Shown here piece after piece: positions 12,002 to 63,487 of a stretch of 64,000 nucleotides of DNA. Every line of letters begins with the position of its first letter. The first letter of the stretch is position 1. The notes beneath the pieces were generated by a model, which had not been told where the DNA came from, did not search any database, and saw nothing but the letters and a program-made list of their open reading frames with translations. Source of the stretch: Heterotrichella gracilis (Eukaryota > Sar > Xanthophyceae > Tribonematales > Xanthonemataceae). The stretch is from assembly GCA_032358255.1 (NCBI GenBank), contig JAULBX010027052.1:62001-126000 (forward strand). Reading direction: 5' to 3'. The translations under genes were made by a program, and so were the position numbers.

Positions 12002-15000
12002 ATGGGTACCCACTGGTGGGCTGTGGGGGTATTTGGCGCCCTGTGCTTTGGAGTGATTTCTGCACTTGGACAGCTGTCGTTGGACTTTGAGCAGGGCTTG
12101 AATGGCTGGGAGATGAACTCTGCAGGGGGCACGTATCAGGACAGAGATGCCGCGGCAGCCTACAGGTAAGCCTGGGTATCCTTGGCTGCAGTCATGCCTC
12201 ACCTAGTAGCCACGCTAAACCCTACCCGCTATACACAGTCATGCCGGAACTAGTCGCCACCCTAAACCCTAAACCACCTCATGTATCACCTGAGCACAAA
12301 CCCTGAGCTAACGCGGGGACTATTCATTGCAGTGGACAGTACGGTGGCAGTTTCAACACACCCAAGCTACCCACCAACCCATGGGACGTGCAGCTGTTGT
12401 CCCCTTACTTCTACGCGTCAAGCGCAACAGCCTACTACCTGACACTGTGGGTGAAGTCCAGCAAGGGCTGCACACTAAACCTGGATGTCATCGGCACCCC
12501 TGACACGCAATACCAGTGGTATGGGGGCATCCAATTCCAGTCACAAAAGCAGTGGCAGCAGGTGAAGCTCCAAGGGTTCATACCCTCTCAGGCCGCTACC
12601 GTCCGGTATGCGGTTAGCCTTGGTCGCTGCAAGGGCAAGATATATGTGGACGAGGTGACAAGCCGCTCAGTCGGCCTCGACACAACCAAACTGACGTCCG
12701 GCGTCGATGCCCGGATCAAGCAGTACCGCAGGGGGGACTTCTCAGTGAGCTTCAAAACCAAGAGTGGCGCCCTCCTGAAGAGCGCCAGCCTGCTGAAGGT
12801 CATCCTCACCCGGCACAACTATCCCTTTGGGACCGCCTTCAATCCCGAGGCGGTTGTGGAGAAAAGCCCCGCTGACCTGCCGTGGTACCAGCAGACAGCT
12901 GGCACATTCTTCAACGCCATGGTCATGGAGAATGCATACAAGTGGCCGGTATATGAACCCACCTCGGGGGACACAGCAGCTGGCGAGGCCCTGCTCACGT
13001 CCCTCTACCTCCCACAGAGCAAGAAGTACAAGCTGGGGACCACGCGTGCGCATGCCCTGGAGTGGCAGATTCAGAAGTACGGGTTTGACAAGTTCTGGGC
13101 CAGGCAGAAGGGGTGTGCGTACTATGTGCAGGTGCGGGAAGTCATCCCTATTGGTGCCATGGTGGCACTCTGGCTGACAACCCTTCAGGCCCTTGAACTG
13201 GTCTTACAATGCCTGTGTTCACATGCCGTTAGCACAACCCCCATTGCCATGTGTGCAAACCTGGTAGCCATTGCCATGCAGTCTCCAGTGGGCCAGAAAA
13301 CCTAAACCCTAAAGGTACCGCAACCCTAAACCCTAAACCCTAAAGGTAGCCAATTGCGTATTGCGTGCAGAGCCTGGAGTGGCGCATCAACCCTAAACCC
13401 TAAAGGTACCGCAACTCTAAACCCTAAACCCTAAAGGTAGCCGATTGCGTACGGCGTGCAGAGCCTGGAGAGGCGCACCAACCCTAAACCCTACAGGTAC
13501 CCTACACCTGAACCCTAAACCCTAAAGGTGGCCGATTGCGTACTGCGCGCAGAGCGTGGAGAGGCGCACCAACCCTAAACCCTACAGGTACCCTGCATCT
13601 AAACACTATACCCTAAAGTAGCCGATTGTGCCCTGCGTGCAGAGCCTGGAGAGGCGCATCAACCCTAAATCCTAAAGGTACCCTAAAACCAAACCCTAAA
13701 CCCTAAGGTAGCCGATTCTGCCCTGCGTGCAGAGTCTGGAGAGACGCATCAAGCGCGACGTGGCCAGGTACAAGGGCCAGTTCCGCCAAATCGACGTGTG
13801 GAACGAGGTCATCCACGAGTCATATCTCCTAGACAAGTGTCAGCTGTGGAACACAACCTTCATCGACGCGTTCCGCTGGGCCCATGAGGCGGACCCCTCC
13901 GCCATGCTGTGCCTGAATGACTACAACCTGCTTGAGGGCCTGGCTGCAGACAGGATGGTGGAGCTGGTCGGCATGGTGAAGCAGGCGGGGGCGCCCATCC
14001 ACTGCATCGGCGTGCAGGCCCACCTTCGTGGCCTGAATGCGGTCACTCCACAGGTAAGGATGGAGATGTTGTATGTATGCCCATGCCGCCCATACAAACA
14101 CACGCTGTATACACAGCCAGAAACCATCTGTCCATTTTGTTATTACTGGAATGATTGGTATATTACCATGATGTGCTATAACCTCCTGGCATGAAGTGAG
14201 CAGGGGTGCAAAAGTGCATTTTCCATAGCCAGGCACTGACTGGTTTGGTTACTCGCTGAGCAGCGCAGATCACTTTGCATCTTATTACACTTCACAAAAT
14301 GGGGGTGGTGGGGGATTAACAATATTCCTGCGCATTTGCCTTCATTTCCCCACCCCCGCGCACAGGCCATGCTGTACCGCCTCCAGCGCCTGGCCTCCAC
14401 TGGTCTACCGCTGTACATCACTGAGTTTGATGTTTTCACTGATTGGAACAGCATCTACACGGAGGGGACTAACAAGCTGACCGACGCGCAGCAAGCCCAG
14501 GAGATGGTCAAGTATGTGCGGTGGTGGTTCTCCGTCCCTGAGGTAAGGCACTGGTTCGTTGAACATTGAATGAGTTATTATTCCTTGAATATTATATTTT
14601 ATTCGGTATCTATACTCAATGAGTTGGGTTAATTGCATTTACCCAAGCAGTGGTTTGACAAGGCTCGCTCTTGAAGTGGGGTGAGATACAAACAAACAAA
14701 CAAACAAACAAAAGGCGTTCCAAGCCGTCATCGGCTTATTGCCCTGTGTGCCCTTTAAAGGTTCGATACAATAAGGCTATGTAACCGGAATGCACTGTGA
14801 CAGTGGCTTGCCAGTGACCTGCTTACCGTGTCTACAATGGTATGGCATGTGGCGCCGCCACAAGTTGCTTGGATTGGATGTCTTTGTTGTGGTTCTAATT
14901 ATGGCATGGTAGCCCGCCCATCGCCCACCACCCCCAATCCCTAAACCCTGAACCCTAAACCCTACATGGCATGGTAGCCTGCCCATGTCGCCCACCACCC

Positions 15001-15736
15001 CCAATCCCAGTGCACCACACTCTTGCCTGATGGCCTGTCACTTCATGCCCACATTTGCCTGACGGCATGTACGGCATTGGATGCAAGACTGCCCTCATGG
15101 TCCCTGCAGGTCAAGGGTGTCTGGCTGTGGGGCTTCTGGGACAAAACCCACTGGATCAAAAACGGTGGGATCTTTAGCTCCAACAAGAGCGTCAAGCCTG
15201 CTGGCACAGCGCTGGCCAACCTGTGGAAGAAGCAGTACACCACGTAAGTCACGTGCAGTGACATTGGTTCATTGGCATGTGGCCTGTGTGGGCGATTCTC
15301 AAGCTGATGGCACATCATAGCAACCCAGTACATTCATGTGGTGGTGCAGTTGTTGACGATGATTTCCAGTGCCCATGTTGCAACAGCATGGACATTGACG
15401 CGCGTACACAACACATGGCTATTCGTGCTCAGTACAATTACCACGTGCAGGACGGGGTGTGTGCAGTGTAAATATATGCATATTGCTGGCATTTCCCAAT
15501 AAATGGCACCCATGAAGACCTGGCAGGAAGCAGCCATATTGAGTAATGCGTTATGCATTTGCAGGGTGAAGGAGGCTACATCGGAGGAGCGCCGGACTGG
15601 CAAGTTGGCCTTCAAGGGGTACTATGGGCAGTACAAGTGGGTGGTAACCGCGAAGGGCAAGGTGTACCGGGGGGCATTCGAGGTCCCAGCGCTGAAGGGG
15701 AAGAAGCAATCGGTGACTATCACTGTTCCTGTGTGA
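12002..15736 (+). CDS. GH10 endo-1,4-beta-xylanase with N-terminal carbohydrate-binding domain
   Basis: Six exons: 12002-12165, 12333-13131, 13733-14053, 14366-14542, 15110-15243, 15565-15736, giving 588 aa. The chosen ATG starts a classic signal peptide (THWWAVGVFGALCFGVISALG), implying secretion. Residues about 27-195 form a CBM22/CBM4_9-like beta-sandwich (LDFEQGLNGWE, TAYYLTLWVKSS, GKIYVDEV). The GH10 barrel follows. The acid/base Glu is about E346 in IDVWNEVIHES and the nucleophile about E448 in LPLYITEFDVF. VWLWGFWDKTHW closes the fold. The 102-residue spacing of the two glutamates is normal for GH10. A small C-terminal beta domain (FKGYYGQYKW...) matches plant xylanases. It would cut xylan or mixed beta-1,4-linked wall polymers. 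Intron 2 holds a striking array of exon-start copies, described separately. Confidence 0.93.
12191..12270. repeat. 47-bp-period duplication with CCCTAAA in xylanase intron 1
   Basis: Copies at 12191-12223 and 12238-12270 share gtcatgcc, ctagt and gccac, and each ends in a CTAAACCCT phrase. Confidence 0.8.
13298..13752 (+). repeat. Telomere-type array with four copies of the exon 3 start, xylanase intron 2
   Basis: Units of about 90 bp, each made of CCCTAAA runs, then gtagccgatt, then a gcgtgcag acceptor, then about 20 bp matching the start of exon 3. The first base after each AG is 13371, 13462, 13554 and 13643. The functional acceptor gives 13733. Spacings are 91, 92, 89 and 90 bp. Confidence 0.95.
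14689..14713. repeat. (AAAC)n microsatellite in xylanase intron 4
   Basis: Five or more AAAC units in a row. Confidence 0.95.
14901..15007. repeat. Direct repeat flanking a CCCTAAA tract, xylanase intron 4
   Basis: Near-identical copies of about 41 bp lie at 14901-14941 and 14966-15007 (both begin atggcatggtagcc and end accacccccaatccc). They enclose a telomere-type tract at 14942-14965. Confidence 0.92.
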
Positions 15737-17087: not shown

Positions 17088-20000
17088 ATGGCTGGCAGAC
17101 GGCCGCAGCCCACAGCACTGCCACTCTCCCAGTGGGCCCTGAACTTCGCAAGCTCGGTGGGCGTGCCTGCGGGCTTCTCGCTGCTTGCCAGCACGCCAGT
17201 CTACTTTTGCCCGCACTGGCGTTACACTCCCGCCTGGAGCGCAGCCTCAGAGCTCCTTTCCTCGTCCACAAGGCAGGCCCATTTGGTACCGCTCTATGCT
17301 CTGGGCTTCAAAGCGGTGTGGTTCTGCGTGGCCAGCCCGTACGATGTGGGGGAGCCAGTCCCGGGGAGGGAGATCGTGCGCCACATGCTCCGTAACCTGG
17401 ACTACACCTCGCTGCTCCCTGCGCTTTTAGAAAGCTCTGACGAGGAGGAGACCACCGCCCAGCAGCTCACCACTGAAAAAGCGCGCGCCAAGCTCCAAAA
17501 GTCAGCAGCCCAGGTGGCCAAACAGGTCGCAGCTGACCAGAAGTCGTGGGCGTTACGTGTCTTTGGGACCATCCTGTTCCAGCCCTTCAAATGGCTGTTT
17601 GGGTCGGAGGTGTACGTGGACCAGGCCAGCCTGCACAAGATCCGGGAGCTGTCCAAAACCCACACGCTGGTCTACATCCCCACGCACAAGAGCCACGTGG
17701 ACTACCTGATGCTCAGCTACGTGCTGTTTACCTACAATATGCAGTGCCCACACATTGCAGCAGGTGCGCAAAGCGCCCTGGGCGATCTCACCCTGCATAT
17801 GCATGCATATGACATACGCATAGGTCACTTGGGCCAAAAGCATGTGTGCCCGTTCCAGTACATCCTACTATCAAGACATGAATTGGTGCCAACTCAAATG
17901 TTGGTGAAAGTGCATTTTCTCTACCTGGTATCTAGATCGGAAATGGATCTGAGTTCACTTCACCCCTGCTTTGAGATCTGAAGTGGGTCTGACCCTACTT
18001 TTCACCGCTGTGGTGCAGGTGCCAACCTGGCGCTGCCGATCGTCGGGGAGTTCCTGCGCAGGTGCGGGGCCTTTTTCATCCGCCGCAGCAACAAGGGCGC
18101 GGTGGACAGTGAGGTGTACCGCCAAGTGCTGGCAGGTGAACCACCACAACCCTTACCTAGGGTACCACCGCACCCACACCAACCAACCAATTCACCCGTT
18201 CCTACAAAGAGGATTCACGCACCCGCACTGACCAACTTCTAAGCAAGTGATTCCCAATTCGCACGCTGACCACGGCCCTCCCGCACTGCACCTCTTTATC
18301 CCTCCACCAGCGCCACAACCCACCCTCACAATTAAATAACCTATGGCCTCTATTTTCCCCACCATGCATCTTGCCGTCCACACGTCCTCATTCCACAGAC
18401 ATACTGGTGAAGAAATCCCGCCGCAGTTCCTTGAAACCCACCCTTCCCTTCTCGTTGCCGTGGTTCTATCACTAAGCAACAGTACCACCATCACATGAGG
18501 CGCTCTCCCCACAACCCACAGCACCTACCCTTGCCACACCGCCCCTGCCACCCCACCCACCCAAGCGTGGATTTACCTTAAACCCTTAACCTGCAGGCTA
18601 TGTCTCGTCTCTCCTGGTCAACGGCCAGCCCCTGGAGTTCTTCATAGAGGGTGGGCGCTCCCGCGATGGCCGCATCTGCACCCCCCGCCTGGGCCTGCTG
18701 TCCTATGTGGTGGATACAGTGCTGGATGAGTCATGCAGCAAGGTGGGTGGGGCGGCGTGGGGGTGGGTGAAGTTGGCGGCAAGGACTGGTGGGGTTGGCG
18801 CGGTGGGCGGGGGCGCTTGCGTGCTTGCTGCTTGCGTGCTTGCTGCTTGCGGCTTGGCCACGTCGTCGGGTGGGCTTGGTCCCTGGGATATGCGCATGCA
18901 CATGCCCATCCCCATGCCCCTGTCAATGGTTGCTCGCCCATCCCCAATCATGAGCATGACCATCCCCGCGTCGCATCCTTCAAAGGTGCTTGCCATCCTC
19001 AATGATCATGACCATCCCCATCCCCATCCCCATCCCCATGCACGTCCCATGACCACCACCATGCCAATTCCCATGCCCATCTCCATCCCCGTGCCCATCC
19101 CCAGGGTGTGCTTGCCATCCCCATGACCATCAGCTATGACACCCCTTGTGAGGAGGACAGCATGATGAGGGAGCTGGCGGGGATGCCAAAGGTGCGCTAG
19201 GGTAACTGGAGGCACCATTAGGGTTTCTGGGGGGGACACCATTAGGGTTTCTGGAGAGCTGGCGGGGATGCCAAAGGTGCGCTTTGCTAGGGTGACTGGG
19301 GGCACCATTAGGGATTCAGGAGGGCTGACGGGGATGCTAAAGGTGGGCTAGGTGACTAGAAGCACCATGAGGGTTTCTGGGGGCACCACTAGGGTTTTGC
19401 ACAGCTGGCAGGGATGCCAATGGTGCGCTGCGCTAGGGTGTCTGGGGGCGTTTTGCTAGGGTATCCAGGCTCATTGCTAGGGTTCCTGCATGCATGCCCG
19501 CAACGCCCACAGGCGTTTCAGCTGTGCAAGGAAATGCGCAGGACCTGAAAAGAAACCCACAGCCAGCTCAAAGCAGCCGTGCCCGCAAGGACTCCACCTG
19601 ATGCAAAGGCTAGCGCCATGTTGCAATGTGCAGCGGGCGAGCCACGCAGTGGGGGTGGCTGTGGTTCCGCTCGCAACCCTATGATGGTGACCTGTGCTCC
19701 CATAGAGGCAATCTTCTTACCATGCCATGGGACGGTGGTTGCGCAGGTGAAGGAGAGCCTGTGGTCCCTTGCGGGCGCTGTGTGGAAGCTGGTGATGGGC
19801 AGCTTGGTGGGGGGGCGCAGGGCGCCTGGGGTGGGCGGGCGTTGCGGGCAGGCGATCATGTCCTTTGGGGAGCCGCTGTCTGTCAAGCGATTCCTAAAGG
19901 TGTGCTTAGGGCTTGTGTGGTGGTAGAGATGCAGGGGTCGGGGTGGTGTGGTCCCGGGGATGTGAAAGGGTGGGTGTCTGGGGATGGGAAGGGTGGATGT

Positions 20001-23000
20001 TTGGGATTGCAGGCGGTGCTGCCAGGTGCATATGTCCTTTTGGGAGCCGCTGTCGGTCAAGCGATTCCTCAAGGTGGGTGGTGTGCTTGCGCGGTCAGAC
20101 AGCTTCGAGGTTCAAAAGCTGTACGAGTTGTTGGTTGGCAGTGTTTGATTGGCAGTGTTTGGTTTCTATGCTCTCACCCTACCAGCTAGCCAGCGAGGAG
20201 TACTCCCTGAGCAGGGCGGCTTGCAAAACGCAGTCACGCATTGCAGAAAGGAATCAAGAGGATAAATGCGAATGGATTCAATATTTACATTGGGCAAAAT
20301 CCACCTGTGTTAAAACCCCTTGCCCAGGAGCGAGCCAAGCACAAGAAGAAGCGTGGCAAGCGCAGCAGCAGCACGCAGTCAGGGGGCCTGGACGACGTGG
20401 AGGAGATTGTAGCTAGCATAGAGGGGAGGGCGCCCGCCATGCACCCCGCCACACCCCCACCCAGCGAGGTCTCTGCCGCGGCGGTGGACAGGCTGAGTGA
20501 GGCCTTCCCCAAGGTGGGAAATAATCACCACCTTTATCACCCTTACCCTCAACTACCCTGGGGATCACTTCAAAAAGGGTGGTATTATCTGACTTGATTC
20601 TGATTACGCTGTGTGAGGCCTTCTTCAAGGTGGGTATTGGGGGTTTGGTGAGGGAGGGGGAGGGGGCGGAATGGGTGGTGGCGTCACATTTATGGTAGCG
20701 TCACGAATGACCACTCCACTGCCGTCTTAATCAACACCCTCATGAGACAAGCAGCAAAAAATAATCTTTGTTTTTAGGGCGGCGAGGCCCGCAGGCACGC
20801 GGTGGAGGCCATTGCTGACAAGGTCACCTCACGCATGCGCAAGTGCAACGTGCTGCCCGCAACCACCATCCTGGTGGCGGCAGCTGCAGCGGCAGCCAGC
20901 CTGCCACCTTTGGAGCCACGTGGCGGCGCCAGCAGGGGGCTGGCCAATGGGCATGCGCCAGGCGGGCAGGGCGAGGTTTCGCATGGCGAGGGGGAGGTTC
21001 CGCATGGCCAGGGGGAGGTTTCGAGTGGGGGTGACGTGGCTGGGCTGTGCGAGCGGGTGGTGTGGCTGGAGGGGGAGCTGGGCAGGAGGGGGGTGAAGTT
21101 TGTGAGCGTGGCGGAGCGGGAGGACAGGTGCGGGGGTGGCGATGGTGGTGGTGGGGTGGTGGGGACAGCAAAGGGGAGGTGTTTGTGAGCACGTTCGCCA
21201 GCGCCCAGCACCTCACCCTGACCACAGCGGCTCTTAACTGTCAACAAAGCTGCATCTCTCGTCCTCCCGGGTTCCCGCTGCCCTGTTGCAATCCCAGTTT
21301 TCAACGCACGAAAACAACCAACCACATCGCGCCCCCTGCCCTCCCCAGGACATTCCAGGAGGCGGTGCGCGACCTGGCGGGCATCGTCCCGCACTGCCTG
21401 CCGCACCTGGCGCCCATCGGGCGGCGGCGGCAGGCACCCGAGGAGGGCTACAAGCTGCGCCTGCACCGCCTGTACCGCCTCAACCAGCTGATGCCTGCCT
21501 TTGGGGGGGAGGGGCTGGTGGCGGCGGCCATGATCGGGGCGGGGGGCCTGGAGGAGGTGGGTGTGGGGTGTGGGGTGACAGGGGGTGAACGCATTGCAGG
21601 GTGACGGGGCTGCACTGCAGTACACGCCCCATCGCGTAAAACACTGTTCCATTGCTTGGCACTCCACTGCGTCGCGTTGCATTACAGTCAACCATCCCAG
21701 TATTATTTTACGTCACATGGACACCTCGTGACAATATCTTAATAGTGGCACACAAAACAAAAAGCCATTACATTGGCTTAATGGATATGCTGCTTCCCCT
21801 GCAGTGCTGCCAGGTGGCGCAACACGAGGTGGTCCAATCCGCCCTGTGGCTCAGGACCCTGCTGGCAGCGGAGTTGGACACCGCCATTGGCCCACATGGG
21901 GTCATGACTGCGGAGGCGGTGCAGGGGGTGGTGGAGGTGATGGTGGAGGGGGGAGCGCTGGTGCGGCGGGTGGTGAAGGGGGGGAAGAAGGGGAGGCAGG
22001 AGGGGGGGGAGGGCGAGCGCGTGGTGCTGTCGCTGGCCGCCTCAGGTGGGGATTGGGTTGGGGATTGAGTGGGATTTGACATTTGATGTGTGGGGATGCG
22101 TTGATCACATGGGTGACCATCCATGAATACTTCCTGTTCTTGCACACAGCCATTGCAATGCACAGCAACCTGTGGTTCGGCCTGCCTGCGCTCGCACACC
22201 AGCACCACACCAGGCATCCCCGAACGAAACAGCCAGTGCCCTGGAGATGTGGCACTGTGTAGCGTTTAGGGTTTAGGGTTCCACCAAACCACGCCAGAAG
22301 GCGACAACGCACCAGGCCCACTGACACAGCCCCTAACGATGCTTGTGACCCCTGCTTTCCCACAGGCAGTGGTCGCCAAGCCGCCCTGTTCAGCGCCCTC
22401 CTGCTTGCTCCCGCCCTCACAACCTACGCGGAGGCGCTGCGACGAGCCGCGGACCTGCTGGCGGCCCAGCCCTCATGTGCGGCGCCCGCCAACCAGGTGT
22501 GCTTCTTGGGGCTCATAGTGGTTGCCGTCTGCCTCTGATAATTTCATGTCCCTGGTCACTTGCCTATGGTCTTTTACCTGGGGAGGCCCCTGGGGTTGCC
22601 ACCCTCCCCAAGTCCCTTCAAACTCCTTATTATCCCTCGCTTCCTTCTAGGGCGTCCTAGATGGGCTCCTCTGTTTCATGTTGCATTCTCGTCGAGGCGT
22701 TGAGGGCTCGTCTGCTCCTGCGTGTGGTTCCACCTCTTGTCATTGTGGCGGTAGCGAGGTCTAGGTTGAATCGCTTCCGCCACAGCATATTCGGCATTGC
22801 TGGTTCCAGTGCTAATCGTGGAAGATTTGTGAGTGTTGACCTCGCTCACCTATCTGCTATTTCCTGCTCAGGTGCTGGGGACGGTGCAGAAGGGGCTGCT
22901 GCAAGGTGGCGGGAGTGGTGGTGCTGGCGGGGATCAGGGACCGGTCCCCTCCATGATGCTCCTGCAGGGTGCGCTCAAGGGATTCAAGGCGCTGGGCGTG

Positions 23001-42321: not shown

Positions 42322-45300
42322 ATGACAGCCAGCAAAGCGCTAGCAGCAGGCGCAATGGCTACCAGACGGTACGCCCCCCGCATCGAATGGGACCCTCAAG
42401 TGCAGCAGTACTTCGAGGCCGCGTTTGGAGCGGAAACGTTCCGGGCCATCTCGGAAGCTCTCTGTGTTCCACCACTCACAACGTGCCTGAGAGTGAACAC
42501 ACTCAGCACTACTGCCGAGGTGCGTGCATATGAAGCTCTAACCATCCCTATGGCATGTAGAGAACTGCTGGTCTCCGTTAACTCTTGCCATACAAATATG
42601 CATGCATTGGCATGCCACGAAGAGTTTTGCGAGTGGTAGACATACGATACTGTGGATAGACTCAATGACCACAAGTGGTCCCAATACATGTGACGTAGCA
42701 TATAGTAAGGTCTAGGCATGGTTCTCGAGCAGCCCACAACTGGTGGGTGCACCCCACCGAACCACACCTGGTGAATATAAGTGGTTCAAGAAGTGCACAC
42801 ATTACACCATATCTGTATTCTGTGCTGACAAGCCATTGGCTGGCATTTTCAGGACGTAGCCAGGCAGTTGCCGGCACTGCTGCCACCACACCACGCCTCA
42901 CCCACGGCCCCCACCAAGCCACCCTTCGTCCCCAGCCTGCCTCCCAACGTGGTGCTGGTCCCCGGGTCCGGTCCCCACACAGTTGACTACCGCCCAGCTG
43001 GGGATAGGGAGGTGGTGATCAGCCGCAAGGCAGGAGAGGCGGTCCTGCGGGGCGCAAACGTGTTTGTGCCAGGTGGGCAAACCCCAACGACTAAACCCTA
43101 AAGACTAAACCCCAAACCCCCCTATGGCAGTGTGGCTGTTTCATTGGCTGCGGAGCCACCTAGCTTTTGCCAATTCCTTATTGGTTTACATGAATAAACG
43201 TCAAATAAATGTTTTCCTCTGCGCAGGCGTGCTAGCCTGCTCACAGTCCATCGCTCCCGGTGACATCGTGGCTGTGTCAGTGGCTGTGGAGCCGCCAGGT
43301 CAGCAGTGGTCGGGGTTCACAAGGGGGACGGTGCTGGGGTCGGCGCACAGCGACGCCCTAGCAACCCTTGACAGAGGCAACCTGTACATCGGTAAGGGCA
43401 CAAAGCGGAACCCTAAGAAAACCCTAGAGGCACGGTGCACAGCAAAATCGGGGATGCCAGCATTCACTTGACCATCATGCCACTGCATGTGATTGGCAAG
43501 GGACCAAACCACAGAAATGACATCATTGAGGCGTCCATCAAATGGCCATGCATGTGGGCATCCATGGGATTTTCATGTGTTGGCCATGTGACTATTGCCC
43601 TGTGGTGGGTGCAGGGGTGGGGCGAGCCGAGATGGGGCGCGTGGAGATATTCCAGGGCATGCGCGGGGTGGCGGTAACCATGGTGGAGCGGGTGTACCAC
43701 ACACCCCCATGCAGCGGTACGAAACCCTAAACCCTAAACCCTAACCCTATGTGTGGGGTGGTGGTGGTGGCCATAATGGAGCGCATATAGCACACGCCCA
43801 TGCAGCAGTACCTGTTGAGTTTGGTACCTTAAGCAAAACCCTGATTGTTTGTGAACGTGGTAATCCAGCTTCGTTGGAAATTCAGTAACCGCACCATGCA
43901 CGACATCCCCGCCCATTCCAGGTGTCCTGGAGGGAGCAGTCATGCTCCAGAACCTTCCCAGCGTGGTTGCTGCCCACGTCCTGAACCCTACACCAGGGTC
44001 AAGGGTTTTGGACATGTGTGCGGCGCCAGGGGGGAAAACGACGGCCCTGGCAATCATCATGGGGGACCATGGGGGGGTCATCGCACTGGATCGGTCGCAC
44101 GCCAAGGTGCGTGATATGTGTAATTGCAATCAAATGGATATCAAACGATGGTGGCCCTTGTGCATCGCAGCTGTGTTTGAAAGGGCCTGCCGCTACTGGT
44201 GATACAAGAACAACACAGGTATTTAAGCACGTTATCCAATTAATTGCCTGATGGCTGCTCTAAGGTTGAGGACATCAGGGCCATGGCGAGGGAGTTTGGG
44301 CTGAAGAGCATACAGGCATACAAGATGGATGCGCGCAAGTGCGTGGTGGAGGGCAGTGGAGTGGCGCAGGCTGACGTGGCACCAGGTGAGGATTGCCTTG
44401 AGCATGGTGTCCTGTGTACATGTGTGCAAAGGTACAATTGCGTGTAACGGGCTGGCGCCTGTTGGTGGTTCCATGCGGTGATGCCTGCGCATTAGTGGTT
44501 GACTTCTGATCTCAGTGATAGAACGCGCTTGCATGCTACCACTGTCAACTAGTATTCACGTATGCAACCTGCATATGCCGTGAGCACTCCTCTTCGCAGC
44601 ATGCCCTAAAGCATGCACTGGCGGTTTATGCACATGTTGCTGCAATTTCATGCAGACGCCACCACCACCACCACCACCGCCGCCGTCTTCGCCCCCGCCA
44701 CCACCACCACCACCTCCAACACCCGCGACCAAGACCGCAGCCAGCGCAAGGCCGCCGCTCGCGCCACCCGCGGTCACCCGCCCGCCACCCCCCACCCCCC
44801 ACCCTCCGCCCCCCACCTCGCCGGTTTCCTCCCCTCCTCCTTTGATTTCGTGCTGTGCGACGCCCCTTGCTCCACCCTGGGACTGCGCCCCCGCCTCACC
44901 CACGCACACACCCTGGGCGAGCTGAGGGCCACTGCGGTGTACCAGCGCAAGCTGCTTGATGCTGCGGTGGCTATGGTCAAGCCAGGGGGGGTGCTGGTGT
45001 ACTCAACCTGCACCTTCAACCCAGGTGGGGGCGGTGGGGAGCGGCATAGCATTAGTTTGTTAGTTGCATGCATTTGAGCGACACATCCCAGTCTGGAGAG
45101 TAGCAGTCTCGCACATGCGGAGCCCAGCAGTTCTATCCTGGCATTGCTTATACTATCTGAGGTCCTGCTGGATCAGGTTAGCGTGTGTGGCCCTTAGGCA
45201 GCACATGCTATAGATGTTATACTTTTGTTCTTCTTTTGTGTAGTGTAATGGGTATGTATTACGCCCTACGTGCCTGTGTGACATCCACCGTAGCAACAGA

Positions 45301-45793: not shown

Positions 45794-46370
45794 CAGCCTT
45801 ATCTCCACTGCCGCTCGGTCGGTCAATGTGCTTTTCAGCTGCCGGCAAATTAGTCCATGGCGGTTTGGTTTACAATATGTATACATTTATTTTCTCCAGC
45901 CAGTTTCCGTTTCACGGATTTAACTCATCCTCATCTGCAATTTCAAATATCTCGAAGATGGTCAATGAAGACCCCATCTGAACATCTCAGTGACTGGCCA
46001 CCTCGTTCCACATGTTTGGCCAGTGATATGCAACATGCACTGCCGGTGGCAGAGGTCGTACGGCACTTGCCCACGCACACTGTAACAACAGTTGCAGCAT
46101 GGTGCATACGCAAATTCACACCTTGCTTGCAACGCAGTAAGCACTGCATCATGTTGCACATGCATGCATGCAAGCGGATTTCCAAACTTGGGTGTGAGAA
46201 GGCACCTTCAGGGTGCAACGACACCCACCTTGGTTACCTGCAGGAGAAGTTCAATCATGCAAGAAGGTATATCACATCCACGTTGCACATTGCTCACAGC
46301 CCTTTTCATGCATTCATGTTCTGTCGTGGCCTTGCCTTGCTTCCACTATGGCCTTGACTTGCTTCCACTA
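45794..46370. other. 3' flank of NSUN6
   Basis: No supported ORF. A possible TGTAA signal lies near 46080. Confidence 0.45.
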
Positions 46371-50658: not shown

Positions 50659-52998
50659 TCACGAGAATGTAATGACTATGAGAATGACCAGCAGCACCAT
50701 GAGGAAGCACAGAATGGCCAGCTGCCCCCGCAGGCCCGCCTTCTGAAGCACGTGCGCCATCTTGCGCTGCGCAGCCGCCAGGCGCGAGTGCGTGGTGTCG
50801 ATGTCCTCCTCTAGCTCATCAAGCAGAACAGCCTGCGGGGTGGGGGGTGGGGTGTGGGGATAAGGGTGAGGGCGAGGTTTTAATTGGGGTTGAGGGTGAG
50901 GTGCGGGGTGTGGGATGAGGATGAAGGCAAAGGGTGAGGTAGTGTGTGTGTGGTGTTGATGTCCTCCTCTAGCTCATCACGCAGAACAGTCTGGGGGTAG
51001 GGGTGAGGTGGGTGTGGGGGGTGATGGTGGCGTTGTGTGTGTGTGGTGTCAACAGACTTCCGCCGATGCATGGTCACCCTACCCCCACCGCCTCCACGGC
51101 CTTGCCCATGAGTCCAGCTCCTCGTGATTTTGTGTGCCCATCTGCCCTAAGACACACCATCACCACCCCACCACCACCACCATCACCACCACCAGACCAA
51201 CAGCAGTGCATAATCCAACCACCGACAACACCACACCCGCCATCCATGCATTGTCATCCCACCCCCACCCCAACCCATCTCCACCCCCAACCCCACCGCC
51301 TTGCCTGTGACTCCAGCTCCCCATGTATTTGAATGCCCATCTGCCCTATCCGCTGCACCTGCTGCCCTAAGTGGTCAAGATCCTGGTCCTGCTGCCTGCA
51401 AGGGGGAAAGGGGGACGGGGGTTGGGGAGAGGGGAGAGGGGAATGCCTGGAGTAAGGTGGCGACGAGGAGCGGAGCAGCGGTGGGGCACCATGCAGGAGT
51501 GGAATGGCCTTAGGCGCCGTTGCTGCTGAATTGGGGTCTACAAACATTCCCAAAACCCTGACCATGGCTCGCAAACTCTCCCCAACCTCCTCAGGCGCCA
51601 CCTATCATCTCCAACACCACAACCGCCATCCACCACTGCACCCAGCCACCCATCGAATGAGCAGCTGCTGGGAATTATGGGCGCCACCCACTGATACATC
51701 CCCACCACCACCACCACCACCACCGCCCACCAACCCCCGATGCCCCACATCCCGCATCAGATTAGGAGCTGCTGGTGCTCCTCGGCGCCAAGTATCCACC
51801 ACCACCACCCACCATCATCCCCCGCAACCCACCGATTCAGCAGCTGCTGGTGCCCCTCAGTGCCACCTATCATCCCCACCACCACCACCCACCACCACCG
51901 CCGCCCCCCACCACCCACCGAATGAGCAGCTGCTGGTGCTCCTCGGTGCCATCTATCATTCGGTCATTGTCCCGCTGCGCTGCCGTGGCGCCCCCCCCAC
52001 CCCCCCGACCAGGCGACGCCCGAGACACACCCAAAGGGGCTGGGGTGGCGCGCGCTGCAGCCTGCAAGCCCTGGATGATGGTGTCAACCTGCAGGTAGGG
52101 TGGGAGGAGGGTGGAGGTAGGAGGGGTGGATGGTGGTGGTGGTGCTTTTGGACCTGGAAAAGCTCCCCAAATGAGTTGCATATGATTTGACCAGTCAACT
52201 GTGATGTGGTCTGTTGCGGTGGGCTGCAATGTACCACTTGGTGTTATTGTGTGGCGTGGTGTTGTGCCTCACCTGCTGGCGCGTGGCGTTGACCCACCGC
52301 CGCCGGTCACTAAGCTCCGCCCCCGACAGGTTGAAGCGCGTGGGATTGCGCTCAGCCACCTCCACAGCCTTGTCCATCTCCTCAACCTGCAGGGGAGGCG
52401 CAGGTGAGGTGGAGGTGGGGAGGGGAAGTGGGGTTTGGGGTGGTACATGGCTTCGGCTACCTCGACCAAGGCTCTATGTGTAACTCTCGTTGGGCCTTCA
52501 GAGTGCACTGGGTAGATCCTCAGGTGATGTACCCTGTATGGTGGGGTGAAGTGCAACTGGACACATGGGTTGCAGCAGTGGGGAGGTGTGGAGCTCAGCA
52601 CATGTGGGTCCAGCTTGCAGCATTTCAAGTGCCTTGATAGGCTGTGACTTACAACCTTTTTGAAGCTGCGTACCTGCCATAGGAGGCTTCTGCTTTCATC
52701 CTCTACCTCTGCTTGTAATCGCTTTCGTTGGCTGTCCTTCCTGCCGCTGGTTTGGAAGTTGTTGAATTTGAATTGAAGCTTGTCCAGCTGCACAAAACAG
52801 TGAAACCCAAGTCACGATCAAGCAACGTCCTCCTTAAACCGTGTCTCTAAACCTTGTAAACACAGGCAGGGCTGTACAAGAGAAGTGCAAGCTGCAAACT
52901 GAGTTGAGTACAGTCACAACCCACGAGATGCGAAGGCTTACCGAGTCTTGGATGTCATCTTTGACGAGGTAGAAGGGATCCTGGCTTCCTGATCCCAT
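50659..52998 (-). CDS. SYP61: Syntaxin-6/SYP61-type Qc-SNARE
   Basis: Six exons on the minus strand: 52998-52942, 52787-52674, 52386-52273, 52088-51919, 51395-51305, 50832-50659, giving 239 aa, normal for the family. The start MGSGSQDPFYLVKDDIQDS matches the SYP61 N-terminus. The syntaxin-6 N-domain runs to about residue 95 (VEEMDKAVEVAERNPTRF, RRRWVNATRQQ). The Qc-SNARE helix spans exons 4-6 (HQQLLIRQQDQDLDHLGQQV, QRIGQMG, LDELEEDIDTTHSRL). A C-terminal membrane helix ends the protein (AILCFLMVLLVILIVITF). It acts in fusion at the trans-Golgi network and endosomes with other Q- and R-SNAREs. Exon 4 carries a Gly-rich linker. Intron 5 uses a GC donor (CAG|GCAAGG). Introns 4 and 5 are filled with copies of the adjoining exon edges. 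Confidence 0.94.
50786..50996 (-). repeat. Exon 6 start copied in SYP61 intron 5
   Basis: The functional exon 6 start with acceptor (50786-50840) recurs at about 50943-50996. The match includes gatgtcctcctctagctcat or its one-base variant and a still usable AG. Confidence 0.93.
51099..51351 (-). repeat. Exon 5 end copied in SYP61 intron 5
   Basis: The exon 5 end and GC donor (from about 51298) recur at 51099-51151. Shared phrases are ccttgcc, tccagctcc and gcccatctgccct. The copied donor is also GCAAGG. Confidence 0.88.
51584..51960 (-). repeat. Three to four copies of exon 4 end, SYP61 intron 4
   Basis: The functional segment at 51919-51960 recurs at about 51825-51875, 51751-51797 and 51646-51690, with a shorter piece at about 51584-51612. 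The common core is agcagctgctggtgc. Spacers are CACCACC-rich. Confidence 0.92.
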
Positions 52999-54533: not shown

Positions 54534-57500
54534 TCATCCCCAGAGCGACGAGAAGCCTGTCTTCTTGCTCTGCTTGAGCGTCTCATTCATTTCGTGGCGC
54601 GCGGTCTCGTACTCGTTTGACAGCTGCGCATAGTCGGTCTTGTACTTCACCAGGTCCTGGTCGGGGAACGGGGAGGGGCACATACGATATGAGCAACCTT
54701 TATGGGGGAGAACACTTGGGTGAAGTTTAGAGTTTTGGATCCTCCTACAGTTTTTACTTTGAATCTTTCATATTAATTCATTTGGGGCGCAAATTGTTCT
54801 CTGCATGCCTCCCCGGGTGCATAAACAGGCACGTTGATACACTTCCTCGCGTCACTGCCCATGACGCCACCACCACCCGCCTTTCCCTCATTTCCCCCCA
54901 GCACCCACCTGCATGAGCCGCACATTCTCCTCCCTCAGGCTCTCGCACTCCACCTGCACCGGCAGCGGCGCCCCGTTGCTGCTGCTGCGCATGGAGTAGC
55001 CAAGCTGACGCTCACGCTCAGCCAGCTCGCCAGCTGTCTCCTGCAGCTGCTGCTCCATAAGAACTTTCTCAAGCCGCATCTTCTCGCTGCACAGAATATT
55101 ACTATCATAATTACCATGACTTTTCTTATTTTAGATGCATTCCAGCACAAAGCCAGATCGGCAACCAGCAAAGGAAACATAAATACATAAGGTATTATAA
55201 ACCACCCATTTTTCATCTACTGCTGCCCCTCCACCAGCATGCCATGTGCCATGTTTACATTTGGGGGTGCCACATGCACATCCATCAAACAGCCACTATC
55301 GCTACCACGCCCCAGGGCAACGGGTGCCGACCCCACACGTACCGCCTGCTCTCGCTCTCCTGCAGGCTCCTCTCCAGCTTGAGGCAGTTGTTCTGAGCGG
55401 CCAGCAGCGCGTCGTGCAGCTCCTGGGTCTCCTCCTCGTGCGCATACTCAGCCGCGTGCAGCTGCTCCTTCAGGTGGGCGGCCTGGGGATGCGGAGGGGT
55501 AGTGAGGTGCGGCTCATGCGGTGCAGCATATATGAGTAGGTATTTAGCCATTGCCAGCTGGATGAGAGGCGAAAGTGGTATGCATGGTGCCCGACTATGC
55601 ACCTGCATATGGCGCCAATTGCCTACCCCACTTCTGGCCTCTTCAAACGTCAGCATTACATTCTATTCACAGCAAAATGTTAATGTTCTAGTTTATTTGA
55701 CTACTTGCAATTTGGCAGGAAAGCCAGACACAGCAAATAATAATCAAAAGGTATACAGGATTTCTTTCTCTGTAAAATGCACTTGAAATTTCTGTTGCGG
55801 TGCCACTTGCCTGTGCCTCCTTTGCCTCCACCGCAAGCTTAATTGCCCTCTCCAGCGTGGTTTCGTCTGTGTTCTGCTTGTACACAGCCAGCTGAGCCTC
55901 AGCCTGATGGCGCTCAGCTGCCATCTGCGCAAGCTGGGACCGCAGAGAGGACACCTCGCACTGGAGCTGGCGCATCTCGCCCTGCGGGGTAGAGTCCAGG
56001 ATCAGGGTTTAACAGGGTTTTAAGTGCGCAGGAAGGAAACCTCGCACTGGAGCTGGCGCATCTCGCCATGCGGGCTAGGTCCAGGGTAAGGGTCTACACA
56101 AGACCCAGCACGTGTATCGCGAGAACCGGAATGCATCTGCATGACGCCAGCCCTTGCAGGCCTCGTGGAATGCCTACACTACCTCCGCCAGATGATGGCG
56201 AGCTTGCTCCATGACAGTGGCGCGCACGGCCCGTGCAACACAATTCCCCCTCGCCTGCACCTCGCCCCAACTCCCCATCCCCCATCCCCACCTCTGACAG
56301 CACCGCCATCTGCGCATCCATGTCTGACAGCTGCTTGCGCAGGCTGGCGTTCTCAACCTGAAGCAGCTCGGAGGAGCGCGGCTGGCCCCCCACGGGGTCA
56401 GGCGTGATCTCGCCCCCATCGCCCGCCGCCCCTGCCTCCAACCGCGCAACCTGGTGACGGCAGCAAAAGGGCTGGGTACACGTGGGGTTGCCAGACGACA
56501 CATATGTACTGATACAATACACTTTATTTCAGAGGATGCAGGTAAGCCCAGAGCCACAAGGGTTGACATGATCCAGCAGGACCTCAGACCGCACAAGACC
56601 AACGAATGGCGTACATACAGTATCAAACTGCTTGGCGCTGCATATGCAAGGCTGCCTACAACATTCTGACACCATACATTATACAGAAAATGCCACCCAC
56701 CTCCTCCTGGTACTGCCCCGCCTGCTCTTCCAGCTGCTCTATGTATGTGGCCAGCTCAGCCTTGTCAGCATGCGCGTCAGCAAGCTGCTGCGATAGCGAC
56801 TCGGCACGGCGCGCAAGCGCATCCGCGTAGTGCGCGTCGGCAGGGTGGGGTGCGCTGGGCCCGGCCTGGAGGGGGTGGGAGGTTGAGGGGTTAAGAAGTC
56901 TGGATGTGCGATGGGGGCTTAAGGGCAGGGCTGTGATTGGGCTGGCTCACAACAAGCAGTTGGCAGTGGGGAGTGCATGGCAAAAACCCTGGGAGTGGGA
57001 GGCGGCAGGCATGTGAGCCCCAACCCCACTGCCATGACGAGTGCGCTCCAGTTAAATTGCAGCTCAGTGTCATGTGATATGCAGTGCGAGGGTGGACCAG
57101 CATGGCACGCTGCTTATAGGCTAACAAATATGTGAGTGGATAGAAGCAGTGCAGCTAGCCCCCATGCAATAACTTGATGGACCAGCATGGCGAAGTGCAA
57201 CTATGCTAGCCCGCTGCCAGGGGTGGATGGACCAGCATGAACCCTCCTCATACGCACTAAATGCAGCAGGTGGATGGACCACCAAGGTGCAGCAACCATC
57301 CCCGCAAGTGCGTACGTTGGATCCATCCCCCGAGGACGCCTCTAGCTGCGCCCGCAGCTGCTCATTGTCCTTTTTGAGCTGCTGCACCGCCTGCTGCAGT
57401 TCCCGATTCTCGTCCGAAATCAGCTGCTTCTCAGACCGAAGCTGCGAGAGCTCCACCTGTGCAATTACAGGCACATCTGTGTGTGTCCCCCAATAGGGTT

Positions 57501-59637: not shown

Positions 59638-62600
59638 ATGCTATCCAGGATCCCCCGTCTCTCCAAGGTACCACACACCATCCTGGCAAGTGCACACACC
59701 TGTGACTGGTTTGATGTGAACAGTGTAGAGCTGAACGATGATGGGTTGCTTTGCTCGCAGACCCTGCGGCTCAATGGGTTGGCACAGCAGTCCAGGAGCA
59801 GCAGCATCTTCAAGGAGTTTGTGGACAAGGTCAAGACTGAGGTGGAGAGGTGAGGCACGCATGGCCCACCCACCACATAAGTCAGTCAGTTACATGCTGT
59901 GCAGCACTGCAGCCAGACTAGCAGCCAGGCTTGCACAGTCATGCGCCCATTAATCCCGGCATTGTATTTCCATATTGTGGACAAGGTCAAGAGTGAGAGG
60001 CATGCACTGCACAGCCACCACCCATTACAAATGCCAAATCCCTTGCTTAGGGCAGTTGTATGTCTCATCCTGCGTCACACAACCCTCCTTTCACACGCAT
60101 CAGGTGCACTAGATTCTGCACCCGCTGCCTCTGCGGGGCTGGATCAGATGCACTGTACCTGGTTTGAAGTCCGACGTTTGTGCTCTGTGTGTTGTGCAGC
60201 AATGCAGAAATCAAGCAGTCGGTGGATGCATTGAAAGAAAAGGCCAACTCGCTAAAAGAAAGGTGAGCCATGCCCAACGTTATCAATGCCACCTTTTCCT
60301 TGCATCCCAACTGTGCCTATGGCCATGCTCAGCTGCGCACCCCACCCACCACCACCACCACACCCACCACCACCATCCACGCAGGACCAAGGCCGCCAGT
60401 GCAGAGGTGCAGCGCGCCGCCAGCGCCGCCCAGAGCGCCACTGCCAGTGTGACGCAGCAGGCGGCGCAGGCGGGGTCCTTTGTGCAAGAGAAGGTGGCGC
60501 GCGCCTCCGTGGGGGTGCAGGAGATGGTGCGCGCACGCCCACACACACGCACGCACATGCGCATGGATATATATTAATGCACAGGCGGACACACAAGGCC
60601 ATGCATACATGCCAGTGTATGTGCATGATAGGCATTGTATTTGTGGGCGAATTCTGCACCGGTGGTGATGCAGCAGGTGGCGCAGGCGGGGTCCTACATG
60701 ATCAGTAAATGACACACGCCTCTGATGGTGCATGGCAAAGGGTCCCACTGTCGGTGAATGGACAGGAGGATATGTGCACATATATATCATGCATGCGGTC
60801 ATGGACATGGGCAGCATGTGCGAGAGGTGGTGCGCGGCTGCCAGACATGGGCATGGGCATGCACGCACATGCAGCCAAAGCATATGTGCATTTAGGCTCT
60901 ATATGCGCCTGGCGTGGTCATGTGCATATGTGGCCAAGCCCCACCTTCAAACCCTGCACATCTCACATGAAAGAGGTCTGAATCCTGCAATGTGTAAAAA
61001 CTGTGCAGGTGAAGGAGAGCTTGAAGGGCAGCACAGCCCAAGCGCCACTTGGCGACGCAACCCCTGCGCAGGGACAGGCGGAGGTGGGGGCGGGGGCGGA
61101 GGGGGTTGCGGCGAGCAGCAGCGGGGTTCATTCAGGGGAGGAGCAGGGGCAAGGGGCACAGGGGCCAGCCGCAGTCGCAGGCGCAGCAGGGGAAGAGAGT
61201 AGCGAACCACAACAAGAGGGGACCAGCTCAGGTGCGTTGCAGTCTCTCATCTCATTCAATTGCTGGGCCGGACACCCGTCCTGTACTTTTTCTTCTATTT
61301 CTGATCCAAAATCATGTGAATCTCCCGCCATGCTCGTTGAGCAAAGATGCGGAAACAGCCAGCGCACGCACCGCAGCTCCCATCCTGCCCCACGCCCCAA
61401 GTCTTGTGCCGCCCCTGTACACACACCCAACATTCGCCACCCCACAACCCAATAACCTCCCTCCCCTCACCTCACAGGCCCCGAGTCTTCTGCCTCCCCT
61501 GGACAGAAACCCCCTCTCTCCGCCCGCGCCAAGCACTTACTGGGCACCGTGTGGCGGGAGGTGGCGGCTGCGGTGCTGCCCGAAAAGCGCGCCGAGTCGG
61601 CCACGAGGATGCGGGAGGATGTGGGGGTGGCGCCGCCGTCGGGCGCCGGTGACGGCGGGTCGGCGCTTGCTGTTGTCAAGGTGGTGGAGAGCGCGTGGCA
61701 GAAGCAGTGGCGGGAAGCCTCGGAGAAGGTGAGGGGCATTGCGGGGATGCTTTTTGGGATGGGCGGGGCGAGGGGAAGTGGGATTTTGTTGGGTTGGGGG
61801 ATGATGATGGCCCTGGCGGCTCGCTTGATGTGGTGGATGTAAATGGGGTGCATGCGGGATGTGTTTGGCTCTAGGGTTGTGTGGGGTCTCGCGTTGGTGC
61901 ATGCATACCTCTGCGGTCATGTGCCACATGCATGCATCCACACAATGCCTACATGCATGTCCCAACTCACACCGCACACTGCACCAGCACCTGCGCTCAT
62001 GCATGCCCTCAACCTCCCTCCCCCCTCCTTCTCAGCTGGGAACGCACCCCTTCTTCCGGCGACTGCGCGGGCTGGGGAATACTCGCGTGGTGCGCAAGGG
62101 GAGGGAGATGGCCGAGGATGTGCGGGATAGGTGGGAGACCATGGACTCGCCGCTGGTGCACAAGATACAGGTGGTTGTGGGATGGAGGATGCAGTGTCAA
62201 CCATTTGGTATGCGCCGGTGCACGTGGGTGGCGGTGATGATGCAGACTCCCCTTGAACCCCCATCCATCCTTACACAATCAAGTAAATCGACCCAAAAAA
62301 ATCAACAGGCATGTTCTGCCGAGCGCTCTATCCACAGGCCCCTTGTAACCCCCCCTCCCCCCTACAGGACATGACCGACTCCATGTTCGCTGAAAGCGAG
62401 GCCGCGTCCGCCATGCGCGAGGTGCGCGCGCGCGACCCCACCTTTGACATCCTGCGCTTCCTGGCCAGTGTGAAGCATGACGTGCCGCTGGTCATCGCCG
62501 CATACCTGCGGGGGCAGGCGGACGTGCTGAAGCAGCACTGCTCGCCCGACATGGTTGAGCGGCTGGTGGCCATCACTGCGGTGCAGCAAGCGGAGGTGGG

Positions 62601-63487
62601 TGGGTGGGTGTGGTGGGTGGTGGTGGTGGTGGTGGTGGGTAGGGGGTTGGTGATTATTGCAGTGTATCAGGCGGAGGTGCGTGTTAAGGGTGGGTGGTGG
62701 TGGTGGTTCTGACTCCATGGTGGTGGTGGCTGGTGGTTGGAGCAACACCTGTGTGTAATGCCTTGGTGCTGCCAGGGTTTCCCCTCTACCCTATTGAACT
62801 ATAATATCAAATAACCATCCCCCGTCACACACACGCACCATGAGCCCTGAATCCCCCTTACCTTTAGACCCTACGGCTGATGTTGTTACCCTTGTGCAGG
62901 GTTTGTTCCCTGACGCCACCATGCTCGACATCTCTGACGTTGAGCTGGTTGACGTCAAGTTCTACGAGGGCGAGCCCCTGATGCTGGTGCAGTTCAACTG
63001 CCAGCAGATAGACTGCGCAAGAGACAAGTGAGTGGCAGGGGGCTGGGATGCTAGGAATCGGGGGTGATTCTTGGGGTCATATGGGATATGATCATGTGCC
63101 AGATGGCGGTACCAGCCCACCTTTGACCCTGCATGCTCCCGTCGGTCTACCTCTCTTATTACAGTCGTATGGGATGTGGTAAGAGACGGCAACAACCAAC
63201 TGCATGGTCTGCATGGCTCGTCGCCTTACCTCTACTGCCGCTAAACCACCACCCACCCCCACCCATGCGTTGTCCTTTACCCCCTTCACGCATCACCAAC
63301 CCCCCACCACCACCGCAGATTCGGCAATGTGGTGGAGGGGGGTCCCGATGAGGTGCGGCGGGTGTACTACGCATGGGCGCTTCAGCAGGACAGGGCCAGT
63401 GGGGCGGTGGGTGCGGATGGCAAGCTGATCGCCCCCCGCTGGCAAATCAGGGAGATGGTGGTCAGGGGGATGCACAACCTGCTGTGA
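59638..63487 (+). CDS. TIM44: TIM44, matrix-side subunit of the mitochondrial import motor
   Basis: Ten exons: 59638-59667, 59761-59849, 60200-60262, 60385-60526, 61009-61231, 61478-61728, 62036-62170, 62368-62595, 62900-63027, 63319-63487, giving 485 aa. The N-terminus (MLSRIPRLSK, then TLRLNGLAQQSRSSS) is an Arg/Ser-rich matrix presequence, followed by the IFKEFVDKVKTEVERSNAEI helical region that contacts mtHsp70 and TIM23. The C-terminal Tim44-like domain is clear: FFRRLRGLGNTRVVRKGREM, RARDPTFDILRFLASVKHDV, GQADVLKQHCSPDMVERL, LFPDATMLDISDVELVDVKF, VRRVYYAWALQQD and WQIREMVVRG. A 75-residue Gly/Ala/Glu-rich insert (exon 5) is unusual. The first intron is 93 nt and open in frame, so a longer N-terminus is possible. 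Introns 2, 4 and 8 carry exon copies. Confidence 0.94.
59818..60000 (+). repeat. Exon 2 end copied in TIM44 intron 2
   Basis: The exon end and donor at 59818-59849 recur at 59973-60000 with a short gap (ttgtggacaaggtcaaga core). A copy of the dispersed 'agccagactagcag' element lies between them. Confidence 0.88.
60664..60696 (+). repeat. Copy of an exon 4 segment in TIM44 intron 4
   Basis: 33 bp matching 60449-60481 at about 30 positions (gcgcaggcggggtcct core). A weaker copy of the exon 4 end and donor lies at about 60819-60840. Confidence 0.88.
62650..62681 (+). repeat. Copy of exon 8 end plus donor, TIM44 intron 8
   Basis: Resembles 62569-62600 at about 70% of positions, ending in GCGGAG|GTGCG, a usable donor. 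GGTGGGTGGT runs surround it. Confidence 0.75.

Follow-up and report, generated by a model that had tools for sequence, protein, structure and literature searches.

Why should introns in a 64,000-nucleotide stretch of the Heterotrichella gracilis genome (hereafter, the window) contain pieces of the exons that border them? A sequence-only reading had reported exon-edge copies in at least a dozen introns of nine genes, in unrelated genes and on both strands. A self-trained gene model with predicted exon edges bears out this description: 13 of the 88 window introns tested contain a duplicate of an exon edge that borders them (alignment score ≥28), and these introns come from 8 genes on both strands. 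The features are as follows.

13280..13752, plus strand: GH10 gene, array of five 91-bp units; every unit contains telomeric tracts and repeats the first part of the exon beginning at 13733 (exon-start copies in intron 13132-13732).
14901..15008, plus strand: GH10 gene, intron only, a copy of about 40 bp, a CCCTAAA-type tract and the copy again.
18986..19009, plus strand: GPAT-like gene, weak copy (score 31) of the start of the exon at 19105.
19171..19449, plus strand: GPAT-like gene, end of exon 19105-19191 with donor and copies at 19256-19283 (exact, 28/28), 19322-19349 and 19402-19429, with TTAGGG-like words between.
19835..20095, plus strand: GPAT-like gene, end of exon 19747-19899 with donor; copy at 20009-20095.
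20608..20634, plus strand: GPAT-like gene, copy of the end of exon 20328-20513 with donor.
35761..35894, plus strand: LRR-kinase gene, end of exon 35648-35781, tract 35799-35811, copy 35871-35894.
40408..40548, minus strand: MGAT4-like gene, end of exon 40517-40898; copy 40408-40440.
43132..43160, plus strand: NSUN-type gene, copy of the interior of the next exon (43268-43296), with telomere-like words upstream in the same intron.
43667..43811, plus strand: NSUN-type gene, exon end 43667-43716, tract 43725-43737, copy 43760-43811.
50788..51003, minus strand: syntaxin-6-type gene, start of exon 50659-50832; copy 50961-51003.
51589..51959, minus strand: syntaxin-6-type gene, end of exon 51919-52088; several copies in intron 51396-51918, e.g., 51819-51862.
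55941..56096, minus strand: golgin-like gene, start of exon 55811-55981; copy 56027-56096, degenerate telomere words between.
59819..59997, plus strand: TIM44 gene, exon end near 59849; copy 59975-59997.
60449..60695, plus strand: TIM44 gene, exon segment 60449-60479; intronic copy 60665-60695.
61391..61421, plus strand: TIM44 gene, copy of the start of exon 61478-61728.
62658..62696, plus strand: TIM44 gene, weak copy (score 30) of the end of exon 62368-62595.

All exon edges are gene-predictor output, and two junctions were compared with relatives: the GH10 domain is continuous across the exon junction in the 13280..13752 region, and the NSUN-type junction at 43667..43811 was checked against Ostreobium. 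Within copy 20009-20095 of the GPAT-like gene, 20047-20073 is predicted as a small in-frame exon. The TIM44 open reading frame was obtained and may run through a first intron.

Exon-edge duplication is real and extends outside the window. The test set comprised 316 of 398 predicted introns, with flanking exons of at least 24 nt and intron lengths of 80-1200 nt; a hit meant that the intron contained a copy, scoring at least 28, of either the end of the preceding exon or the start of the following one. Copies of 5' junctions were found in the same intron in 23/316 cases, against only 4/6320 for introns of other loci, and copies of 3' junctions in 16/316 against 6/6320. Beyond the window, 24/228 tested introns likewise duplicate an exon edge of their own, and such copies turn up at 7 of the 20 loci sampled elsewhere (L010, L013, L015, L016, L018, L019, and L022). 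The splice dinucleotide lies inside 34/39 junction copies; GT is kept in 18/22 and AG in 10/12. Local duplication clusters touch 74 of 400 predicted introns, and 27/400 contain a telomeric tract.

Exon edges had been singled out as special targets, which these data do not support. Probes from intron interiors are also duplicated (38/834 versus 23/316 and 16/316 for the two junctions), and tracts show an even distribution over the length of introns (32 introns, KS p 0.46). Junction targeting is therefore unconvincing, and exon-edge copies look like the survivors of a general local duplication in genes. In pairs with at most one exonic copy, one copy reaches into an exon in 36/55; including pairs with both copies exonic, 51/70 reach an exon, compared with 32.8/70 under a shift null. 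This excess may be a detection effect, because a copy constrained by selection is easier to recognize. Spacing, described as mostly 65-120 bp, fits that description only in part: it falls in that range in 32 of 71 clusters, with a median of 123 bp (range 63-379). At least 11/71 clusters are tandem and lack a spacer.

The telomeric tracts provide the second line of evidence. The alga's own telomere repeat, long arrays of which open six contigs, occurs at interstitial sites far above chance: (CCCTAAA)3 has 834 exact matches genome-wide versus 0 for the reversed motif, and 45 tracts of at least 13 nt were found in 264 kb, against 0 or 1 for each of the other 19 circular orders of the same letters. 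The same sequence flanks the tract on both sides at 36/84 sampled sites versus 68/1200 intronic control positions, which substantiates the proposed link to telomere-type repeats; 48/84 sites have no flanking duplication at the threshold used. Flank matches were seen at 25/60 loci and then, with the same threshold, at 11/24 in a second, later-fetched set, whereas controls gave 25/900 positions in 20 ten-kilobase loci and 6/1680 mismatched pairs (1/900). At 15 of the 36 duplicated sites both copies, here 19-77 bp long, lie within 8 bp of the tract (control, 12/1200); L043, L046, L047, and L077 are plain copy-tract-copy examples. In 13/25 loci (15 with the masked model), one of the copies and a predicted exon overlap. 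TTAGGG or CCCTAA occurs in 15/56 spacers between local duplicates, compared with 121/1337 intron chunks.

Tract clusters in the contiguous sample are intronic in 33 of 34 cases and intergenic in 1, with 7.2 intergenic expected (p 0.005), and the plain gene model places 58/60 loci in introns. Once the tracts were masked and the model was trained anew, counts became 48 intron, 6 intergenic, and 6 exon versus 448, 150, and 202 in the control (p 0.02); confinement thus weakened in these short fetched loci but held steady in the contiguous sample. A strand bias relative to genes was rejected: it is 29 to 14 per tract but vanishes by cluster (19 to 13) and by independent locus (30 to 28; 24 to 24 masked). 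Mixed organisms do not account for differences among loci, since composition fails to separate loci with and without duplications, L011 and L021 aside. These two are low-GC contigs on which no genes of the alga are predicted; they were excluded from the controls of the tract-location, final flank-duplication, and along-intron tests and kept in one flank-match control. The composition of L028 is somewhat atypical.

We favor, with moderate confidence, the view that repair of DNA breaks within genes left the copies behind as scars, with telomeric DNA added or captured. The copy-tract-copy layout, its excess over controls, its intronic position, and its overlap with exon edges are observed; breaks, fill-in, and telomerase action we infer, as follows. 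The two strands of a gene would be cut tens of bases apart, and fill-in of the overhangs would double the stretch between the cuts. In some events a 3' end would be extended by telomerase, or telomeric DNA captured, before end joining, to yield copy-(TTTAGGG)n-copy, or copy-copy where no tract was added. Repeated events or recombination between copies could generate arrays like the one of 5 x 91 bp in the GH10 gene. Duplications disrupting an exon would be lost, whereas those taking in a splice site could still be removed by splicing, so that exon edges with their splice sites would stay visible in introns. The bias of tracts toward introns and genes counts against this view because breaks alone leave it unexplained. 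So do the 48/84 tract sites lacking a flanking duplication and the 41/56 spacers lacking a telomere word. Signs of telomerase priming (nucleotides in register with the tract), judged by eye and uncounted at 15 loci, gave nothing clear, and comparison of the sampled loci with each other yielded no empty site, i.e., one with neither tract nor second copy.

The main rival, a possibility we hold to be real yet clearly the less probable, is duplication around older tracts. Tracts of any origin would offer weak points or short homologies at which slippage, unequal recombination, or template switching duplicates the neighboring sequence into minisatellite-like arrays. Telomeric words just outside the copies in 8/15 flush loci fit such a history, as do the resemblance of L073 and the 91-bp array to unit-plus-tract repeats and the 21/36 pairs that are not flush with the tract. 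However, the 12 bp outside the copies is free of telomeric words in 7/15 flush loci, and a duplication that arose later, its ends placed at random, would seldom be expected to halt at the tract's two edges.

It is unlikely that replication or repair simply produced ordinary small tandem duplications, with no telomerase and with the telomere association as a by-product of shared fragile places. In favor of this reading are the spacerless tandem clusters and the 41/56 spacers of local duplications that have no telomere word. The excess of tracts between copies over intronic controls runs against it.

An introner-like or other mobile element inserting in introns is highly improbable, and the earlier exclusion of both introners and transposons holds as far as tested. 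Direct repeats do flank a mostly intronic insert, but the inserts have nothing in common except the telomere repeat. The golgin-like exon-edge region 55930-56100 is single-locus, with no other match in the genome, and the 8 cross-matches among sampled sequences are mostly dispersed repeat or overlap. A 50-70-bp stretch of spacer 59842-59974 recurs at 6 other places, and 33830-34030 has matches at 39 or more; some pairs near 33850-35357 stem from dispersed repeats, and none of the 13 exon-edge introns is located there. Introners, as portrayed in the available part of PMC9860276, likewise change introns by insertion, some with target duplications, but they share family sequence, create new introns, and in some cases leave duplications of 3-9 bp, shorter than the flush copies. 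Tandem genomic duplication and break repair, as routes of intron gain (PMC3296678, available part), also duplicate gene segments and leave direct repeats at introns, yet they make introns, while here existing ones are lengthened on one side. The upstream exon end is not repeated in register at the intron 3' end (score ≥11 in 2/313 versus 21/8407); this test rejects intron gain by duplication and likewise gives no sign of the in-register similarity of 5' and 3' junctions that a new intron made by an introner would have. An assembly or sequencing artefact, despite the low-GC contigs in the assembly, is scarcely credible because copies within clusters diverge by 3-33%, and neither the tract association nor the two junction checks would be expected from misassembly.

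That no described element does this was too strong a claim. Among the titles and abstracts listed by literature searches, none dealt with exon-edge duplication around telomere repeats. The available parts of PMC2246262 and PMC7215372 describe interstitial telomeric insertions in primates, rodents, and horse, likewise short tracts inside chromosomes, as double-strand-break repair. Target duplication is minor there, at 6/130 rodent and 4/25 primate loci (PMC2246262) and at 3/66 horse loci plus 2 complex ones, ascribed to staggered breaks (PMC7215372); in the alga, such break-site modification is seen at 36/84 sites (15 flush on both sides), a count made without empty sites for comparison. In human, 31% of interstitial telomeric sequences are intronic, which fits chance (PMC7215372), and exons are reported to lack them (PMC2246262, PMC7215372), whereas the alga's tracts cluster in introns and the copies include splice sites. 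We read the alga's sites as interstitial telomeric insertions, yet with duplication far more frequent, intronic, and copying splice sites. CST-guided Pol alpha-primase fill-in at 3' overhangs also produces small tandem duplications, a doubling by staggered-end fill-in that would explain tract-free copies; its description in the available part of PMC8355091 includes no telomeric tract, and the alga's overhang type and enzymes are not readable from sequence. Plant telo boxes are short AAACCCTA motifs similarly dispersed through the genome, but in Arabidopsis and rice they concentrate in 5' UTRs without being raised in introns overall, and the available part of that account mentions no flanking duplication (PMC3022908).

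The original proposal of a local duplication tied to telomere-type repeats, adding intron sequence and possible decoy splice sites, is supported. More speculatively, and rather doubtfully, an ongoing gene-confined process might engage the telomere-end machinery, telomerase and fill-in, in mending staggered breaks linked to transcription, doubling tens of bases at a time, steadily lengthening introns, multiplying splice sites genome-wide, and feeding alternative splicing without a transposon. Intron growth and spare splice sites are usually attributed to transposons or point mutation. In this alga duplication of gene pieces seems to have enlarged a measurable fraction of introns, given the 74/400 introns touched and the 15/56 spacers with telomere words, and the scars look as though they lengthen introns and leave spare splice sites. 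If confirmed, the process, which is directly testable in cultured algae, would link telomere maintenance, break repair, and gene structure.

Exon edges in this genome recur within the introns that adjoin them. Each junction probe (30 nt of exon plus 15 nt of intron) was aligned to the remainder of the same intron and to the introns of other loci, and a score of at least 28 was taken as a copy. Copies were found in the own intron for 23/316 5′ junctions and 16/316 3′ junctions, versus 4/6320 and 6/6320, respectively, in the introns of other loci, which bears out the copying into adjoining introns described by the sequence-only reading. That reading had counted at least a dozen introns in nine genes on both strands. 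Both strands are indeed represented among the 13 of 88 window introns with a copy of their own exon edge (elsewhere 24/228), but these introns are spread over eight genes. All exon edges are predictions made without RNA by a purpose-written gene finder, whose 264-kb training set joined the window with 20 fixed-position stretches of ten kilobases each; these 200 kb outside the window formed the comparison sample. It predicted 398 introns, 392 with a GT donor, with a median length of about 270 bp. The 68.5-Mb assembly has 903 contigs, and the window lies on contig 454 (219,133 bp); the proteins of the window find their nearest matches in green algae. The genes named in the window are:

GH10 xylanase gene, recognised
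glycerol-3-phosphate acyltransferase-like (GPAT-like) gene, recognised
LRR-kinase gene, recognised
MGAT4-like glycosyltransferase gene, slightly below the Pfam cut-off
syntaxin-6-type SNARE gene, recognised
TIM44 gene, recognised
ubiquitin-conjugating enzyme gene, recognised
eIF2B-beta gene, model with 56% protein identity to Myrmecia bisecta and 60% to an environmental protein
NSUN-type methyltransferase gene, 49% protein identity to an Ostreobium relative across 98% of its own length
golgin-like coiled-coil protein gene, named by eye

Relatives were used to check two duplicated junctions. Of the five copies in the GH10 gene, only the last continues into the domain, whose alignment with a solved xylanase runs across the junction. 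Where the NSUN-type gene has its duplicated exon end, the spliced protein aligns gap-free at that junction with the Ostreobium relative. At these two junctions the copies are extra, not coding.

The proposed link to telomere-type repeats was also upheld. We take (TTTAGGG)n as the telomere repeat of this genome; arrays of at least 8 repeats start no more than 140 bp into contigs 70, 140, 609, 712, 717, and 770. Interstitial tracts of at least 13 nt number 45 in the 264 kb, against 0 or 1 for any one of the 19 alternative circular arrangements of these letters, and genome-wide (CCCTAAA)3 has 834 exact matches (overlaps counted), the reversed motif none. Tract sites were taken in listing order, and the 150 bp on each side were compared, with a score of at least 35 defining a match. 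For contigs 2-45 the listing gave 62 distinct sites, and 60 of them made up the first set, which omits two (on contigs 2 and 7); flanks matched each other at 25/60, versus 1/900 mismatched locus pairs and 25/900 random positions in the 20 ten-kilobase loci. A second set of 24 further listed sites (contigs 46-58), fetched later, gave 11/24 at the same threshold. Together, flanks are duplicated at 36/84 tracts, compared with 68/1200 intronic control positions and 6/1680 mismatched pairs; the other 48 sites show no duplication at this score. At 15 of these 36 sites, both copies (19-77 bp long) end 8 bp or less from the tract (control, 12/1200). The plainest loci (L043, L046, L047, and L077) consist of a 25-34-bp stretch, a tract, and that stretch repeated, and at locus L051, 77 bp of exon end and donor are repeated around the tract. 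A copy overlaps a predicted exon in 13/25 duplicated first-set loci, or 15/25 with a model trained on tract-masked sequence.

The copy-tract-copy anatomy is far more frequent than in controls, and other local copies have no tract (41 of 56 spacers lack a telomere word). Staggered breaks with filled-in overhangs would double a stretch, and telomerase, or captured telomeric DNA, would supply the tract. CST is active at telomeres as well, and this role may combine with its part in fill-in. CST and Pol alpha-primase fill-in produces small tandem duplications at 3′ overhangs (PMC8355091). Among mammalian telomeric insertions, the loci reported show duplication at 6/130 in rodents and 4/25 in primates (PMC2246262), and at 3/66 in horse, where the study attributes it to staggered breaks (PMC7215372). 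In the main rival account, the tracts are older than the local duplication. It finds partial support in the telomeric words that occur outside the copies at 8 of 15 flush loci (absent from the outer 12 bp at the other 7) and in five 91-bp units of a GH10 intron, each with tracts and an exon-start copy. Insertion during break repair and tract-first duplication may both be true, one after the other.

Tracts favour genes. Of the 45 in the contiguous sample, 43 are intronic, 2 intergenic, and none exonic. As clusters, 32 are intronic and 2 intergenic (8.8 expected; p 0.005), or 33 and 1 (7.2 expected; p 0.005) with the tract-masked model. For the 60 fetched loci, the unmasked model places 58 in introns; the masked model shows a weaker bias (48 intron, 6 intergenic, 6 exon; p 0.02). 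Transcription-linked breaks, a candidate cause, would produce this bias. Preferences in orientation relative to the gene and in position along the intron were looked for, and none was found. At loci L031, L043, and L071, the tract directly follows a GGTGAG-type sequence resembling a splice donor.

Other repeats were noted. A dispersed repeat of about 70 bp at 33830-33902, with parts in loci L008, L029, and L088, has at least 39 other genome matches at 81-91% identity, from the scoring of 40 among 349 candidates. A contig start lies no more than 20 bp from about 11 of the matches listed, as if the assembly had broken at the repeat. A segment of a TIM44 intron (59874-59947) matches 6 other places in the genome (81-85% identity). 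Two adjoining 30-bp units in an eIF2B-beta intron (29625-29684) have first parts resembling each other's reverse complements, and in-frame-sized tandem repeats (66 and 87 bp) lie at 4201-4335 and 4902-5094, in exons predicted for a repetitive, charged protein. Two sampled loci, L011 (contig 1, 894 kb) and L021 (contig 100), have about 35% GC, long open frames, and no gene by the algal model; one encodes an FAD-binding domain, and by eye we take both contigs to come from a bacterium associated with the alga.

Duplication is not confined to exon edges; intron-interior probes are duplicated too (38/834). Self-comparison of the 264 kb, filtered for score and complexity, left 98 local pairs that fall into 71 separate clusters. 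Offsets are 63-379 bp (median, 123); the median copy length is 57 bp, with 25-129 bp spanning the 10th to 90th percentile, and identity ranges from 67 to 97% (median, 85%). The clusters are unevenly distributed: loci L013, L022, L015, and L016 hold 12, 10, 6, and 6, and 8 of 18 gene-bearing ten-kilobase stretches (L009, L012, L018, L020, and L025-L028) hold none. With the masked model, the 70 clusters outside the two low-GC loci divide into 52 that touch exons and 18 confined to introns, with none intergenic. Pairs with one copy extending into an exon number 36 among the 55 with at most one exonic copy, or 51/70 including 15 both-exonic pairs, versus 32.8 (SD 4.0) of 70 under a shift null, an excess to be read with caution because a copy constrained by selection remains recognisable longer. 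No sign of new introns arising by local duplication was seen among the predicted introns. Copies spanning a splice dinucleotide retain it in 28/34 cases, near the rate predicted by general identity; they are therefore possible decoy sites, with no sign of selection. A small in-frame exon predicted in the GPAT-like gene (20047-20073) is itself part of a copy, and it is a candidate for alternative splicing. Read most simply, these results reflect a general process that duplicates DNA within genes and whose splice-compatible products survive.
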